DNA of 64,000 bases from contig JAHHIG010000002.1 in NCBI GenBank assembly GCA_019358895.1, positions 248,001 to 312,000 on the forward strand. The letters run 5' to 3'. Positions 17,672 through 26,147 of this stretch are shown here, piece by piece. Under the pieces are notes generated by a model, which was not told the DNA's origin, ran no database searches, and saw only the letters and a program-made list of their open reading frames with translations. The translations under genes and the position numbers were made by a program. The stretch comes from Tildeniella nuda ZEHNDER 1965/U140 (lineage in GTDB: Bacteria; Cyanobacteriota; Cyanobacteriia; Leptolyngbyales; Leptolyngbyaceae). The stretch's first letter is position 1. Each line of letters opens with the position of its first letter.

Positions 17672-18373
17672 CTAGATCATCAGCCGTTCGAGTGCGTGAG
17701 GGTCGGGAATCGTGAGCGTGTCACGTTCACGCACAATCAGTCCTTTTTTTTCAAGCTTGCTTAAGACTCGCGTCACTGTTTCGCGCGCAAGACCACTAAG
17801 GCTACTCAGCTCACGATGGGGCAGGTTCGGAATTTCGGTACCCGTCGAGACCTTTTTACCTTGCCCGTCTGCCAGAAAGAGAAGGATGTCCGCAACGCGT
17901 GAGGTGCTGTCAGATTCGCGTAACCGCAAGCGACGGTTGACTTGTCGCAAACGGCGTGCCATTAGCTGCGCCAGCCGAATGCCTGATTGAGGCTCGGTGT
18001 GCAGTAGATTGACAAAATCCTGCGCGGGCATGTTGCCAATCACAGTCGGAGCGAGGGTAATCACATCGGTCGATCGAGGCACTTCGTCCAGGGGAGCCAT
18101 TTCGCCAAACAACTCGCCTTTGCCCAGAATGTTCAGCGTCACTTCCTTCCCATCTAGATTGTACGTGCGAATTTTGACCCAGCCGTTCAAAATAAAATAC
18201 ACCGAGCTACCCCAGTCATTCTCTAACAGAATCACCTGGTTAGCTGGATGGCTCCGCATCACAACCTGGGCTGTAGCTTTTTCAACCGCCGTCTCTGGGA
18301 GTCCTTCAAAGAAAGGAGCGGAACGAATCGATATGTTAGCTTGAGCATCTCTGGGACTATACCGATCTTCCAT
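17672..18373 (-). CDS. CRP/FNR-family transcriptional regulator, SYCRP1-like
   Basis: The 233-residue protein has a cyclic-nucleotide-binding domain (about 18-135) and a C-terminal winged helix (about 150-225) with a recognition-helix region REL SSLSGLARETVTRVL. The binding-pocket signature GEMAPLDEVPRSTDV keeps the glutamate and the R-S pair that contact cAMP in E. coli CRP, so cAMP binding is plausible. The sequence resembles the cyanobacterial cAMP receptor SYCRP1 (for example NDWGSSVYFILNGWVKIRT). NtcA lacks this cAMP signature, so that identity is less likely. An 819-bp spacer lies upstream. Confidence 0.85.
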   Translation of the reverse strand: MEDRYSPRDAQANISIRSAPFFEGLPETAVEKATAQVVMRSHPANQVILLENDWGSSVYFILNGWVKIRTYNLDGKEVTLNILGKGELFGEMAPLDEVPRSTDVITLAPTVIGNMPAQDFVNLLHTEPQSGIRLAQLMARRLRQVNRRLRLRESDSTSRVADILLFLADGQGKKVSTGTEIPNLPHRELSSLSGLARETVTRVLSKLEKKGLIVRERDTLTIPDPHALERLMI

Positions 18374-19192: not shown

Positions 19193-22100
19193 GTGACTTC
19201 TCAGAAGGATCAAATTCAAGCGCTGATTACAGATATCGATGGTGTGCTTCAAAAGACGACTCCCCGTCTTCCGTGGGTGGTGTCTGGCGAGATGACGCAA
19301 CAGCGCCAGGTTCTGGAGCGCGTACGCAATTACTTGGTAACCTTTCAGCGGAGCGTGGGTGAAAGCGTTGGGCAAGGGGGAGCCAGACCAGACCTGCTGG
19401 CGCATGATATCTACTACCAGCCGCAAGCGTCCTACTCATCGCCTCCCGTCGATGCTCAAGCTGAGCGATCGCAGCCGTATAGCCCAGACGAACTGACAGC
19501 GCAACAGATGCTACAGGCGATCGTCCAGGAAATGGGGTATCTACGCTCTAACCTGATGCAGCCGCTTCAATCAGATGTGGAGCTTTTGCGACAACAGCGA
19601 GAATCGTTAGCACAAGAAATCCGTCAGCTTGAGGCACAGCGGCAGGGTTACGCAGGACAGCTACCGAGCAACCAACAGCAGGTGATAACGGAGTTTTTGC
19701 AGGCATTGATGAGCCGACTGCAAGAAACGCTGCCGCAGCAGGTGGCACAGACCTTGAGGAGTGGCAATCAACAGTCATTGCCCTATGGCGCTAACCTGGC
19801 ACTGACAGGCTCGGCTCCATCCATTGCGGCGACATCAGAATCGCCCTCTCAAGGGTCTGGCAATATTCAGATCGCGCAGTCGCAGTCAGATGAACTGCTG
19901 ACCAAGCTAGATTCCACTCTCAGCGTTGTGTTTGAGTCTTTGCAGCGAAACGTGCAGGCATACGAAGAGTCTCTCTCTCAAGGGCTGGATAAGATGCACA
20001 GCCTGGGACAGCAGGGCGAGATGATGTTTACAGCGCTGATTAGTCATTTAGCGAATCAGCTTGGGCACGAAGCCTCTTCCTATCTACAGTCGCCTGCTGC
20101 AACCGGACTGGAGTCAGCGCGACTAGCCAGCCCACAGGTTGCGCCAACAGTGCCCGATCGCTCGCAACCATCCCAACTAACGGTGGCTGGGGCTAATTCA
20201 TCCTTATTTGAGCAACCCAATGCCACTGCTGTCTCACGACCGTTAACACTGCCGTTCCCTGGTACTGAAATCTCCAGTCGCTTTTCCGAGGCGGTGCCTG
20301 CGTCTGCTGCAAATCTACCTGAACCATCGGTAGATACTGCGATCGATTCCTGGCTTCGCTCTGCTAGTGGTGTCGATGCTACACCAGCGGTTGATTTCGA
20401 GCTGGCTGAATTAAATCTGGAAGGCTTTGATTTAAACCAGTTAGCAGCCCAAGACGTGAACGCGCTACTGGAACTGGATGCAAATCTACTGGGCACCAAT
20501 CTATCGCCTCAGCCGATCTTAGCGCCAATCGAGCCGATCGATTCACCGCCTCAACCGATCGCTAACGAGATGTCGTCAGGTGCCATGAGCGCTGAAGATA
20601 CCGCTGACATTGATGCGGCGCTCAAGCTATTAGAACAGCTAAGCTCGGAATTGCAGGATCAGCCAGCGTCGGTAGCAGATGCAGACGCTCAGATTGATCG
20701 GATGTTGAGTACTCCTTCATCACTAGCGGAAGAAACCGCAGCAGCTAGTATCCCTGATGATGCACAGGACGAGCTGGACGAGTTCTACGAAAGTTTATTT
20801 GGCAACAACGCGATCGCGGTTGAACCGTCCTTAGAACCAGCAGTGACAGACAGCCTTGATTCTGCACCTGCGATCGCTGCCGTAGACCCAACATCCACGA
20901 GCGCGCCAGTTACGTCGCCGTTGACCGCTCAACCAATTGACACACTCCCCGCTGAGACGCAAGCACTTACAGAGACGCTAGTGGCACCTGACACCGTTGC
21001 TGCCCCCGCAGTGTCTACAGCCGTTGACCCTACTTTAGGTTGGGATTTGCTGGCAAAGCCGTCAAGTACCCAGGCTACAGAACTAGACATTCCGGCAGCA
21101 CTGTTGGAAGACGAGTTGCTCAGCGGCTGGGATTTTGAAGAGACTGAGGTTGGCTTAACGGAGCCTGAACCAATACCTGTTAGCGATGAACTGTTAGATA
21201 CTTGGGATGCTGACGCTGCGAGCGATCGCGCCCCATTCGTGGCTGATACGCTTACCCAGCCGCCAATCGACACGACAGCAACTGTCTCCAGCGATAGCCA
21301 GGATTCAGCTACAGCGATCAATGCAGACGTTTTAGTGTCAGATACCGCGCCAACGCTTGAGCCACCCGGTAGTACAGACGAAATTGCTGCCCTGACAGAT
21401 TTGTTTGACGAACCGATGCCTGCTGAACCACTAGAAGCACCGATCGCGAATCCTGTAGTACCACCACAGAGCTTCAGTCAATCTCCAGTTGAGGCTTCCC
21501 CCAACACGATTGCACCGACCTTGCCAGAATCTACTCCGAAGCTTGCTGATCAGGTAGAAAACCGTTTGGGAGACGATCGCTATACGCCTGCGTCACCAGA
21601 AGAAGATTTGCTACCGCTTGCCGATCCCGCTGATGAATTGGACTCTGAACTATGGTTGGATGAAAGTACGTTGAATCGCTTGAGCGAAGACCTTTTCAGC
21701 TTAGAAGAGACGATCAGCGAGCCATCAATCCTGTCGTATGACGTTGAACCTGGAGCCGATACAGCAACACTGTACTCAGAAGCAACAGCACCCTATGAAA
21801 CGGCACCTTATGCGGATGAGCCGATAGCTTTAGAAGACTGGAGTACCTCGCTGAATGAGCTTGCTGATAACGTACCCACAACCGACTCAACGCCAGATTC
21901 CACCGAGTCTGAACGTACCGCGATCGTCGCCGAAGAGCCAAGCGCTTTCATTCTGGAGGGGATGGATGATCTATTCACAAACACCCCTATCGTACTGCCT
22001 GTTACGCCGATCCCACCTCCGATCGTCTCCACGCAAGCAGAGCCATCGGCTGCTTTTACGCTAGAGGGAATGGATGATTTGTTTGGAGATTCTCAAACTG

Positions 22101-23023
22101 ACCCCGTACCCTTGCCACCAACCTCGTTTCCAATCGCAACCCAGCCGCCATTTACCCTGGAAGGGATTGATGACCTGTTTAGCGATGCCCCAATCGTCAG
22201 TTCGGCACCGCTAACACCATCTTCAGACGCTCCATCAGACCAATCCCTACCATTCACTTTAGAAGGGGTCGATGAGCTTTTTGCCGATGCCCTTCCCATT
22301 GCTGATGTACCTCCAGTACCGCCCGAAACGGTGGACGTAGGCTTGCTAACCCAACCGGGAACTGCCGCAGATTTTACTCTGGACACAGCAGGTGATCCTG
22401 GTGATCTCTTTGTGGCAGCGCCAACGGCTGTGCCGTCACCAGAAAGCGCATCCACCGAAGCGATCGCGCCACCTGCGTCACCCTCACCTAGCCTGACTTC
22501 GGAGTCTACTGCAGATTTTACTCTAGACACAGCAGGTGATCCTGGCGATCTCTTCGTGGCAGCGCCAACGGCTGTGCCGTTACCAGAAAGTGTGTCCACC
22601 GAAGCGATCGCTCTACCCTCATCGTCCCTACCAAACCCGGCTTCTACACCCGTTGCCCCGTTTACCTTTGAACAAGTGGGCGACTTATTCATAGAAGTGC
22701 CGTCTGGGGAACTGCCTTTTCACGAGCAACCGACGAATGAGCTACCAGGTGCCGATTTTTTGATCGCCGAACCCTCTGCTCCAGTCCCTGAACCGCTTGT
22801 ACCATTCACGCTAGAGCAGGTGGGTGATGTGTTCATGGAAGTGCCCTCTGAAGAAGCAATTCCAGACGCGCTGGCTGCCTCGCCGAACCCACAACCGTCG
22901 TCTCCGCCCCCAGCCGAACCGTCAACCTTGGAGCAAGCCTTTGCCAGTCTGATGGGTTCCTTTGGCGATCCAATGTCAGCCGACGATGGGACAGACGCTC
23001 AAGATGCTGAAAAAAAAAAGTAG
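19193..23023 (+). CDS. Giant acidic protein with C-terminal FTLEG-DDLF motif repeats
   Basis: This 1276-residue protein starts at GTG 19193. The N-terminal part (about 1-290) is helical and glutamine-rich with probable coiled coils. The rest is acidic and rich in A, P, S, T and D, so probably disordered. From residue 919 a hydrophobic motif recurs: FILEGMDDLF (F919), FTLEGMDDLF (F955), FTLEGIDDLF (F987), FTLEGVDELF (F1021), FTLDTAGDPGDLF (F1061 and F1109), FTFEQVGDLF (F1157), FTLEQVGDVF (F1205) and a degenerate STLEQAF at 1244. I do not recognise the protein. Its arrangement suggests a scaffold presenting short docking motifs. The frame ends GAA AAA AAA AAG TAG; a -1 shift there joins it to the downstream Hsp70/actin-fold gene. 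Confidence 0.85.
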   Translation: MTSQKDQIQALITDIDGVLQKTTPRLPWVVSGEMTQQRQVLERVRNYLVTFQRSVGESVGQGGARPDLLAHDIYYQPQASYSSPPVDAQAERSQPYSPDELTAQQMLQAIVQEMGYLRSNLMQPLQSDVELLRQQRESLAQEIRQLEAQRQGYAGQLPSNQQQVITEFLQALMSRLQETLPQQVAQTLRSGNQQSLPYGANLALTGSAPSIAATSESPSQGSGNIQIAQSQSDELLTKLDSTLSVVFESLQRNVQAYEESLSQGLDKMHSLGQQGEMMFTALISHLANQLGHEASSYLQSPAATGLESARLASPQVAPTVPDRSQPSQLTVAGANSSLFEQPNATAVSRPLTLPFPGTEISSRFSEAVPASAANLPEPSVDTAIDSWLRSASGVDATPAVDFELAELNLEGFDLNQLAAQDVNALLELDANLLGTNLSPQPILAPIEPIDSPPQPIANEMSSGAMSAEDTADIDAALKLLEQLSSELQDQPASVADADAQIDRMLSTPSSLAEETAAASIPDDAQDELDEFYESLFGNNAIAVEPSLEPAVTDSLDSAPAIAAVDPTSTSAPVTSPLTAQPIDTLPAETQALTETLVAPDTVAAPAVSTAVDPTLGWDLLAKPSSTQATELDIPAALLEDELLSGWDFEETEVGLTEPEPIPVSDELLDTWDADAASDRAPFVADTLTQPPIDTTATVSSDSQDSATAINADVLVSDTAPTLEPPGSTDEIAALTDLFDEPMPAEPLEAPIANPVVPPQSFSQSPVEASPNTIAPTLPESTPKLADQVENRLGDDRYTPASPEEDLLPLADPADELDSELWLDESTLNRLSEDLFSLEETISEPSILSYDVEPGADTATLYSEATAPYETAPYADEPIALEDWSTSLNELADNVPTTDSTPDSTESERTAIVAEEPSAFILEGMDDLFTNTPIVLPVTPIPPPIVSTQAEPSAAFTLEGMDDLFGDSQTDPVPLPPTSFPIATQPPFTLEGIDDLFSDAPIVSSAPLTPSSDAPSDQSLPFTLEGVDELFADALPIADVPPVPPETVDVGLLTQPGTAADFTLDTAGDPGDLFVAAPTAVPSPESASTEAIAPPASPSPSLTSESTADFTLDTAGDPGDLFVAAPTAVPLPESVSTEAIALPSSSLPNPASTPVAPFTFEQVGDLFIEVPSGELPFHEQPTNELPGADFLIAEPSAPVPEPLVPFTLEQVGDVFMEVPSEEAIPDALAASPNPQPSSPPPAEPSTLEQAFASLMGSFGDPMSADDGTDAQDAEKKK
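22370..22657 (+). repeat. 144-bp tandem duplication inside the repeat-protein gene
   Basis: The 48-codon unit beginning at D1060 is followed directly by a near copy beginning at D1108. The first 22 residues of each copy (DFTLDTAGDPGDLF and onward) are identical, while the last half has drifted. The duplication adds one complete docking-motif unit in frame. Confidence 0.85.
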
Positions 23024-23052
23024 CTGAGCTAACGACTAACCGCTTAGAAGCG
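23010..23052 (+). promoter_or_regulatory. Candidate -1 frameshift site: A AAA AAG with two downstream stem-loops
   Basis: A run of ten A (23010-23019) followed by G gives the zero-frame reading GAA AAA AAA AAG TAG, which contains the heptamer A AAA AAG in the correct phase, as in E. coli dnaX. After a -1 slip the ribosome would avoid the TAG and enter the open frame of the ATPase gene. Right after it are a short stem TAGC-TGA-GCTA (23021-23031) and CGCT-TAGA-AGCG (23041-23052). A run of ten A also allows transcriptional slippage, as in Thermus dnaX. A homopolymer sequencing error would give the same picture. Confidence 0.6.
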
Positions 23053-23055
23053 CCA

Positions 23056-24993
23056 GTGCCCAGCGCTCAACCTGATTTGTCAGTGGAAGGCTCGATCGCG
23101 CCCCTAACAGAGCTATCTCCAGCAGAACTAGAGAACGCGATCGCTGCGATAGACCCACCCGAAGCTGATGCAGCGGCAGCCGTCGCAACTTGGTGTCTGG
23201 GCATTGATGTGGGCACAACAGAAATCACAGCCGTCTTGTTGCAGGTTCAGACAGGGCAGACCTATCCCATTGTTTGGCAAGAGGTGGAAGCACCCGATCA
23301 GCCAGCGCTGGCTGGTCTACCTGCGATCGTTTATCTATCTGCTCAACAATTCAAGCACCTGCCTGAAGTGCCAAATGCATTAGGGTATCAGGCGCTGGAG
23401 TCCGCCTTAACCGCTGCCAACCAGCCAGATACAGGGCTATTGCTGAGCAACTTTAAACCTTATCTCAAGGCTGGTACGCCTTATCTGAGTGAGCAACAGC
23501 ATTGGGAGCCAGTTTTACAATGGTCTGACCAGCAGCCTCTGAGTCTCCAGTGGTTACAGCAGGCGCTGGTGGCTCTCCTGCAAACGCTAAAGGGAAGGAC
23601 GCTTGGCTTAATCAGCACTGCCCCAGCGATGACACAAGAGGCATTTCAAGCCGCGATCGAGCACATCACAAGCGTGATCATTGGGTGCCCAACCGGATGG
23701 TCAGATACGTATTGCTTTAATCTACGAGAAGCAGTGCTGGCGACGGGTTTAGTCGATCGTGCTGAACAGATTTACTTCCTTGAAGAGGCGATCGCGGCAC
23801 TGCTCGCTACACTACCTCAACCAGCCGTCCAGCGTCCGTCCAGCGTCGCCTCTTCTGCTGTTACTGACAGCCGTTCTGACAGCTCATTGCAGGGTAGCAC
23901 TCTGGTCTTGAGTGCGGGTGCCACGACGACGGAGCTTTTGCTGGTTGATCTGCCCCGCGACTTAGCAGTTGAACAGTCCGATCGCACCTTCTTAACCCGC
24001 GAAGGCTTGTATCTACGTAGCCTTGCCTATGCAGGCGATGCGATCGACCAGGACATTATTTGCCAGATTCTCTATCCATCTGCCTGGAGTTGGGGCAGCC
24101 TGGATTTACAAAGCCTGGACTTGCCATTACCGGGAGAGCCAGACCAGAATGCCCGCGATCGCCTACAGCAACGGCTACGCAACAGTGATTTAGGACAACA
24201 ATTGCTGAATGCTGCCAGACAGCTCAAACTGGCGTTGCAGCAGCAAGATACGGCAACGTTTAAGTTGAACGACCAGCAGTGGACGGTCAGCCAACAGGAT
24301 TTGCACAGCCGCGTCACAATGCCCTACCTTCAGCAATTAAACCGAGAGCTAAATGTCTTGCTCAATCAGAGTGGCATTGCGGTACAAGCCGTACAGCAAG
24401 TGATTTGTACGGGTAGAACGATGGCGCTACCTGCGATCGCCCACTGGCTTAAGCAGAAACTGCCCAACACGCGCGTACTTCAAGATGATGAACTATCCGG
24501 TATGGTTAGCAACCGCATCGCTGTTGGTCTGGCAACGCTGCCTCTCTACCCACAGATGTTGGATGCAGTGCGCCATCAATACAGCGATTACTTTCTGCTG
24601 CACGAACTGGTGCGGCTCTTACCAGATGAGTCGCTTTCAGTTGGACGCATTCTGCAACTGTTAGAAAAGCAAGGCATTAACACCAACTTCTGCCAGCGTC
24701 CTATCCTCAGACTCCTGGAAGGACGCTTGCCAGAGGGACTGTTGCCCTCTAACACGGCTGCGATGCTCACACTTGAATCACAGCAAAACCCTGATTATCA
24801 AGCGTTGATGGCACAACCGCTGTTTTCTAGAGAGGGTAATCAGCTCTACGGGTTCAAGCCGGAACTGCGCGATCGCCTCCAACAGTACCTGACTGCTATC
24901 CTGGCAAATACCCATCAGACCCTGGCAGAGCCGCTGTTAATTGAGCTAGGCGCTGAAGTGAGGAATGAAGGCTACAACGTTCTGCCTATGTGA
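23056..24993 (+). CDS. Hsp70/actin-fold ATPase, partner of the repeat protein
   Basis: The 645-residue product has the ATPase signatures in order. These are phosphate-1 LGIDVGTTEITAVLL (D51), the helix AEQIYFLEEAIAALLATL, phosphate-2 LVLSAGATTTELLLVDL (about 283-300), a connector GDAIDQDI, the adenosine motif VICTGRTMALPAIAHWL (about 449) and a second connector RIAVGLATLPLYP. This is the Hsp70/actin fold, without the DnaK substrate domain and with its own C-terminal helical region (about 500-645). The GTG start at 23056 has no good ribosome site, and the frame stays open upstream to 23011. It may therefore be made only by coupling or by -1 frameshifting from the upstream gene, as part of a 1933-residue fusion. 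The function is unknown. Confidence 0.8.
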   Translation: MPSAQPDLSVEGSIAPLTELSPAELENAIAAIDPPEADAAAAVATWCLGIDVGTTEITAVLLQVQTGQTYPIVWQEVEAPDQPALAGLPAIVYLSAQQFKHLPEVPNALGYQALESALTAANQPDTGLLLSNFKPYLKAGTPYLSEQQHWEPVLQWSDQQPLSLQWLQQALVALLQTLKGRTLGLISTAPAMTQEAFQAAIEHITSVIIGCPTGWSDTYCFNLREAVLATGLVDRAEQIYFLEEAIAALLATLPQPAVQRPSSVASSAVTDSRSDSSLQGSTLVLSAGATTTELLLVDLPRDLAVEQSDRTFLTREGLYLRSLAYAGDAIDQDIICQILYPSAWSWGSLDLQSLDLPLPGEPDQNARDRLQQRLRNSDLGQQLLNAARQLKLALQQQDTATFKLNDQQWTVSQQDLHSRVTMPYLQQLNRELNVLLNQSGIAVQAVQQVICTGRTMALPAIAHWLKQKLPNTRVLQDDELSGMVSNRIAVGLATLPLYPQMLDAVRHQYSDYFLLHELVRLLPDESLSVGRILQLLEKQGINTNFCQRPILRLLEGRLPEGLLPSNTAAMLTLESQQNPDYQALMAQPLFSREGNQLYGFKPELRDRLQQYLTAILANTHQTLAEPLLIELGAEVRNEGYNVLPM

Positions 24994-25053: not shown

Positions 25054-25533
25054 ATGACGATGGCGGACGATCGAGAGCTAGACTTGCAAACCAACGACGC
25101 GCTAGATGATGTTGACCTGGATACCGACGATCTTGATACTGATGATTTTGTAGAGCCAGATTCAGGCGATCTGCCCCAAGAAATGACGGAGTCATACGGC
25201 ACAGGTGTGCATGACCAACCGGGATTTGCAGCGGGTGGACGCACGATGCGCGACCGTGCGAGTGACTTCAATGAGGCTAGTCCCACGCTTACAGGTGGCG
25301 ACGTTGATGGGAACTATGAGCAAGCGAATGCCGATGGCGACGAGTCGGTTGGTGGTACCGTTTCCACACCGGATATGGATGTAGTGGATGAACTCGGTGC
25401 GGCTGTAGGACTAGAGATGAACGAGCGCTCCTTTCTCCGCACAAATGACGTGCTGGAAGAGCGTGATTCTCGCCGTTGGGAGCTGGAGCCAACCTCCTCA
25501 GAAGATTACACCGAGCGGAGAGACGAGGAGTAA
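25054..25533 (+). CDS. DUF6335-like acidic cyanobacterial protein
   Basis: This 159-residue, very acidic protein starts [12 protein letters not shown] and has an aspartate-rich segment (16-40). The conserved tail includes [55 protein letters not shown] and [13 protein letters not shown] recognise these as a recurring cyanobacterial family (probably DUF6335) of unknown role. A GGAG ribosome site precedes the ATG by 9 bp. It follows the ATPase gene by 60 bp in the same direction, so co-transcription is possible. No enzyme motif is seen. Confidence 0.7.
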
Positions 25534-25595
25534 GGCGATCGCGCCCGTCTGCCCACCCTCACACTGTTCATTGCTTCCTTTGCTGCCCCAAAAAT

Positions 25596-26147
25596 ATGGC
25601 TAGACCGCGCAAACGCACAAAGCAGATTGAGAAGGCTGCTCAGGAGCATTTTGGTTATGACGACCTTCGACCTGGACAGGAAGCGGCAATTCAATCCGTC
25701 TTAAATCGGCAAGATACCCTTGTGGTGATGCCAACGGGTTCTGGTAAGTCTGCTATTTACCAAATTGCAGCGGTAGAACTGTCCGGTCCTACAGTCTTTG
25801 TCTCGCCGCTTCTTGCCTTGCAAAAAGATCAGGTAGACGCGATCGAGAATCAAAATCTGGGTGGTGCAGCACAGGTCAATTCAACTATTCGGGAAGGCGA
25901 TCGCCAGGATGCTTTTGACCACTTAAAGACAGGCAAGCTTGAATTCATCTTTCTGGCTCCCGAACAGTTTAAGAATCCAGAAACGCTGGAGCATCTCCAG
26001 ACCACAAAGCCATCTCTGTTTGTAGTCGATGAGGTACACTGCATCAGTGAATGGGGACATGATGTTCGTCCCGATTACCGACGCTTGGGAGCCGTGATCG
26101 AAGCCAGTTACACATCAGCCCGTCAACCTGTACCGCTGTGGTCATGA
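25596..26147 (+). pseudogene. Truncated RecQ-family helicase (N-terminal ATPase half only)
   Basis: From ATG 25596 ([20 protein letters not shown]) the frame encodes about 183 residues matching the start of RecQ-like helicases. It has Q-motif [10 protein letters not shown], Walker A MPTGSGKS, motif Ia [14 protein letters not shown] and motif [28 protein letters not shown]. It then changes abruptly to an unrelated [13 protein letters not shown] and stops. Motif III (the TAT motif), the second RecA domain and everything after it are missing, and no frame nearby resumes the homology. The gene is probably a remnant after a deletion. The frame could be read from 25476, but that part overlaps the upstream gene and matches nothing. 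Confidence 0.85.

Follow-up and report, generated by a model that had tools for sequence, protein, structure and literature searches.

How are two adjacent open reading frames (ORFs) that meet at a run of ten adenines (A10) expressed in the cyanobacterium Tildeniella nuda ZEHNDER 1965/U140? The question arises from a locus in a 64,000-nucleotide stretch of contig JAHHIG010000002.1 (the window, to which coordinates refer), part of a genome of 6.08 Mb in 38 contigs (G000). The upstream gene (19193-23023, + strand) begins with GTG and encodes a scaffold-like protein of 1276 amino acids (aa) that ends ...AQDAEKKK with its stop right behind the run. Its last codons are GAA AAA AAA AAG TAG (23009-23023), and the joint reads CTG, A10 (23010-23019, + strand) and then GTAGCTGAG. 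The frame of the downstream ATPase is called F here, and the frame one base further on S. The TAG at 23021-23023 (+) lies in S, that is, the ATPase frame +1, and terminates the unslipped product. The third frame is closed by a TGA at 23025-23027 (+), two codons on. The -1 frame, which encodes linker plus an Hsp70-like ATPase, is open from 23020 to 24993 (+), with 657 codons before the stop at 24991-24993. An earlier reading of the window from its letters alone (the sequence-only reading) had predicted a fusion of 1933 residues, and this was exact, as a one-base frame change gives 1276 + 657 residues. From direct reading of the joint and its conservation in relatives, the best explanation is that the two ORFs form one bipartite gene with programmed transcriptional slippage of RNA polymerase at the A10 run, for which we estimate a probability of roughly 0.7.

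To locate the ATPase in other genomes, six-frame searches of 39 relatives and 390 sampled genomes of the class were performed. It was found in 24 of the 39 relatives and in 214 of the 390 sampled genomes. In many relatives the ATPase terminates a single open frame of about 1200 to 2600 codons with the same architecture. A further 42 or so genomes that were examined have both halves as one open frame without the A run. The joint was read in 106 genomes or records; unfused loci were fetched first, and the proportions of the different states given below are therefore no census and no estimate of prevalence. Fused relatives that lack A10 had no stretch of A≥9 or T≥8 in the linker. The first approximately 300 aa of the upstream protein are conserved in the N-terminal halves of both separate and fused relatives. 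Because fused relatives exist and this N-terminal region is shared by fused and unfused forms, the comparison indicates that the two ORFs of the window are halves of one protein and that a change of frame at the A run links them. The view that the two proteins form one functional unit, on which all of the earlier readings agreed, is thus borne out by the many relatives with one ORF and by the conservation of the run.

An A run was present at the joint in 58 loci spanning at least 13 cyanobacterial families. It consisted of exactly ten A in 43 loci, nine in 8, eleven in 6 and eight in one, so that A9 to A11 is typical and a run of A9 or more is present in 57 of 58. Such runs are rare elsewhere: an A10 flanked by non-A bases occurs 3 times on both strands of the 6.08-Mb genome and an A9 13 times, and only 2 other coding-strand runs of A≥9 were found away from the joint in 755 kb of compared loci. 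Among 9 near genomes the GA10G sequence is invariant, while mean column identity of the flanks in the alignment is 48%. All 131 full lysine codons within the runs are AAA, whereas upstream in these genes 120 AAA stand against 124 AAG; this argues for selection on the run at the DNA level that exceeds the need for lysine. The base behind the run is G in 40 of the 58 loci, T in 10 and C in 8. Another A10 of the T. nuda genome (L151 1501-1512; G000:C35:67282-67293, - strand) lies in frame within an ORF of 309 aa (ATAKKKASPV) and is a possible second slippage site.

The frame in which the ATPase follows the upstream gene is much less constant than the run. It is -1 in 36 of the 58 loci, +1 in 8 and 0 in 14. 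An ATPase tree of 102 rows, a quick tree in which some placements are unsure, shows at least 14 changes of frame state among the loci that bear the run and 8 changes in the presence of the run. Near neighbours may differ in frame behind equal runs: G190 (+1) and G234 (-1) both have A10, with GATCGC behind the run in the former and TCGC in the latter, and the neighbours G018 (0) and G044 (+1) both have A11. Since run length is equal where the frame varies, it was flanking insertions or deletions and not a change of run length that shifted the frame. This bears on the proposal that the joint is a phase-variable contingency locus, in which replication slippage would switch the fusion on and off between cells. 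Homopolymers do mutate through replication slippage, and the frame does differ between related species. The nearly constant run length and the variation of frame behind equal runs speak against such a switch, however, and nothing about the protein suggests a surface antigen; phase variation is hardly probable at this locus.

A stop behind the run is kept in the same frame whatever frame enters. In the -1 loci, where the entering frame is S, 32 of 36 have this stop within 4 codons, as has the TAG of the window, whose position 0 to 4 codons behind the run is kept in most loci under any entering frame. Counted per genus, an early S stop is present in 18 of 22 (null expectation 4.6; a value not reached in 20,000 draws, p < 5e-5). 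The +1 loci are entered in a frame other than S, and nearly all of them nevertheless have an early S stop (7 genera, null 1.4). Of the 14 loci in the 0 state, 9 have an early S stop (null 3.0, p 6.5e-4) and 3 an early stop in the other frame. The downstream layout, with F open and S closed, is by this count kept under any entering frame, and it therefore fits a site that delivers several frames, as slippage of RNA polymerase does. In a group of Nostoc-like in-frame fused genes (L119, L120, L123 and L064) A10 is kept as E-K-K-K and the early S stop is missing; these sites may be relicts or differently used.

The same stops bear on the idea, offered in the sequence-only reading as one of three, that a homopolymer sequencing or assembly error has split a gene that is truly fused. 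An A10 run is an error-prone context. The configuration was, however, found in independently sequenced species, including the single-contig genomes G019, G028 and G053, all genus-mates with a readable joint share the -1 arrangement, and error would not be expected to place stops immediately behind the run in a fixed frame (p < 5e-5). An error is thus extremely improbable as the cause.

It was further considered whether the locus consists of two ordinary, translationally coupled genes, with the ATPase started from GTG 23056 or another internal codon and the run being incidental. The sequence-only reading had noted a GTG start without a good ribosome site. The ATPase ORF of the window has GTG starts only, namely that at 23056-23058 (+), the sole early candidate, and one later, and no Shine-Dalgarno-like (SD-like) motif was found before either of them. 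In G001, the closest relative, the interval from the run to the domain contains no ATG and no GTG. Among the 41 shifted loci with a recognizable ATPase motif, the interval from run to motif lacks ATG in 30, lacks both ATG and GTG in 18 and lacks TTG as well in 5. Separate ATPase genes with ATG do exist in a few related lineages that have no run (G188, G341, G335, G381 and G383), and where such run-less genes could be read ATG was present in 5 of 6. Independent initiation of the ATPase was rejected, as there is no conserved start between the run and the motif; moreover, separate genes would leave the conservation of the run, the fixed stop frame and the fused relatives unexplained. We regard this arrangement as very unlikely.

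More serious is the possibility that the fusion is made from unslipped mRNA by ribosomal frameshifting on the run, either by a dnaX-type -1 tandem slip at A_AAA_AAG or A_AAA_AAA or by looser sliding on poly-A. The heptamer A AAA AAG, with which the sequence-only reading had headed its account, is indeed present at 23014-23020 at the end of the upstream gene in the phase of dnaX, and it is unavoidable in a run this long. Its phase is right in the window and in most -1 loci, with the run ending at codon base 2 (AAN) in 25 of 36. As a conserved signal it did not hold: relatives keep the run, but neither the phase nor the next base, which may be G, T or C, and A10 loci in the +1 and 0 states exist. 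About 7 bases suffice for a -1 slip, whereas the run has 9 or more A in nearly all loci. A downstream product restricted to the -1 frame was not found either, as 22 of the 58 loci are +1 or in-frame. In the +1 loci a -1 step meets a stop within 0 to 5 codons and never leads to the ATPase, and in the 0 loci the conserved stop sits in the +1 direction, which a -1 step cannot reach.

Stimulators of ribosomal frameshifting were also looked for. The two short stem-loops proposed behind the heptamer of the window gave no better fold than shuffled versions of the sequence (z +0.76; 150 of 200 shuffles were equally good). Across the 58 loci stem-loops behind the run were not enriched when folding was done without pseudoknots (mean z -0.50, control -0.26), nor were SD-like motifs before the run (8 of 58 loci as compared with 59 of 679 control positions). 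Neither stimulator is conserved, and ribosomal frameshifting is accordingly judged unlikely.

Of the earlier readings, transcriptional slippage is therefore favoured, error is very unlikely, and the dnaX-type -1 signal loses its place at the head. The family shows the sequence features described for genes with transcriptional realignment, namely a run of about 9 or more A, conservation beyond protein constraint, and both +1 and -1 members; the presence of +1 and -1 pairs inside one family has been read as pointing to transcriptional realignment (PMC3711429). RNA polymerase would slip on A10 and produce mRNAs that differ in the number of A. In the window, mRNA with A10 would give the protein of 1276 aa, consisting of the helical N-terminal domain and a long disordered linker and ending EKKK-stop, and mRNA with A11 (or A8) would give the scaffold-ATPase fusion of 1933 aa. 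In species with the in-frame arrangement the same run would give mainly fusion and some scaffold. The slip rate would set the ratio of scaffold with ATPase to scaffold without it. Slippage in the cell, its rate, the use of both products and any scaffold function are what we infer from these features. A wider proposal is more tentative, and we consider it possible rather than probable: the family may employ a frame-agnostic, phylum-wide device that keeps approximately A10 and the fixed stop and leaves the entering frame free, and that would set the ratio of free to ATPase-tethered scaffold, possibly tuned by conditions.

Several observations weigh against transcriptional slippage or its general use. 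An A10 run always includes A_AAA_AAA, so that a -1 ribosomal shift could also take place in the -1 loci, the window included. Sliding of E. coli ribosomes on A stretches has been reported (PMC4363877), and such sliding could in principle yield several frames. Whole clades that have lost the run make only the fusion, and two products are thus not universally needed. The in-frame A10 loci G232, G269, G302 and L064 have no close stop. In the +1 loci the unslipped product terminates 2 to 26 codons on, with no clear selection. Finally, some frame assignments rest on draft or metagenome assemblies.

The two halves of the protein were also examined for domains and folds, and neither half gave a Pfam or NCBIfam match above cut-off. 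The N-terminal helical or coiled-coil domain comprises about aa 1-300 (19193-20092, +) and was described from an alignment of 36 loci and an AlphaFold model. Its invariant residues include L11, I15, L19, D240 and Y257. The model is all helix, with a predicted local distance difference test score (pLDDT) of 65, and was too weak for a fold search. The portion of the Pro/Ala/Ser/Asp-rich linker between 21941 and 22850 (+) contains 8 matches to an FTLEGxDDLF-like motif, as compared with 0.3 expected when shuffled. Seven copies of this motif are present in the closest genus-mate and few or weak ones elsewhere; the repeat is possibly a binding motif.

The C-terminal half is a predicted ATPase with an Hsp70/actin-fold nucleotide-binding domain (NBD) and a helical C-terminal extension (23176-24990, +; 605 aa modelled). 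The AlphaFold model reached a pLDDT of 90.3 and a predicted template modelling score of 0.92, and it matched the NBD of DnaK/Hsp70 with a Foldseek E of about 1e-14 and a VIA-align Z of 23.6. The Pfam HSP70 score was 9.3 bits, below the gathering cut-off of 20.6. According to the model this half has an Hsp70-type fold, yet by the Pfam sequence criterion it is no member of the family. The window protein further differs from the NBD of Hsp70/DnaK in its identity of only about 15-17%, its helical C-terminal extension and its coiled-coil/disordered scaffold partner.

A gene for a Crp/Fnr-family regulator (17672-18373, - strand) is divergent from the scaffold gene and is kept as a neighbour in most named loci compared. 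It adjoins the scaffold gene in Leptolyngbya, Halomicronema, Nostoc and Cylindrospermum loci, and in some of these DUF2232 and CobT-like genes come next. The gene immediately behind the ATPase encodes a DUF6335 protein (25054-25533, +), and similar genes occur near the locus in several genus-mates; no DUF6335-type gene was seen beside those fused relatives that were compared. The following ORF (25476-26147, +) starts with TTG, corresponds to the N-terminal part of a RecQ-like DEAD-box helicase and reaches its stop after some 220 codons. As relatives of about 550 aa lie nearby in genus-mates, the gene appears to be truncated.

To our knowledge, few of the conserved chromosomal genes that have been studied well depend on transcriptional slippage; besides insertion sequence (IS) elements, they are dnaX and some secretion genes. 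A single-copy family that occurs across many cyanobacterial families and has retained its run through at least 14 frame changes lends itself unusually well to a natural test between slippage and ribosomal shifting. The comparison also implies that automatic annotation would split a conserved protein of cyanobacteria, some 1300 to 2600 residues long, give it a wrong start or label it a pseudogene, and it provides a first handle on an uncharacterized scaffold with an Hsp70-like ATPase. No account of the scaffold-ATPase family or of slippage in it was found in the open literature searched; the unnamed GeneTack clusters might contain the family.

Among known systems, the dnaX gene of E. coli has the same heptamer in the same phase as the joint of the window and uses it for -1 ribosomal frameshifting. 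It differs from the present family, in which phase, stem-loop and SD-like stimulator are not conserved, the run is longer than needed, and +1 and 0 relatives exist. Transcriptional slippage on poly-A that fuses orfA and orfB has been reported for a cyanobacterial IS element, with 8 to 10 A in IS copies of Nostoc PCC 7120 (PMC1088944). Here, too, a poly-A run would be used for joining two ORFs, but the gene is a single-copy chromosomal one in a conserved neighbourhood without a mobile element. In dnaX of Thermus thermophilus about 50% transcriptional slippage occurs at A9, and the slipped mRNAs lead to long and short products, tau and gamma (PMC1088944). That gene likewise has a long A run in the chromosome, and its layout is shared by the 0-frame loci of the present family (e.g., G057 and G201). 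It is, however, another gene, and most run-bearing species compared here are out of frame, so that slippage would be needed for the long product and not for the short one. For bacterial genes tested in E. coli, a frame change of 63% was reported with 11 A and of 40% with 9 A (PMC3711429). The two-ORF A10 dnaX genes and the GeneTack clusters of Mg-chelatase and DUF111 are again other genes, but they consist of -1 ORF pairs joined at A9 to A11 and have fused relatives, as does the locus described here (PMC3711429). The proposed mechanism thus works like that of Thermus dnaX and of the two-ORF A10 dnaX genes, and what is new is an undescribed family with an unusually wide and informative pattern of conservation.

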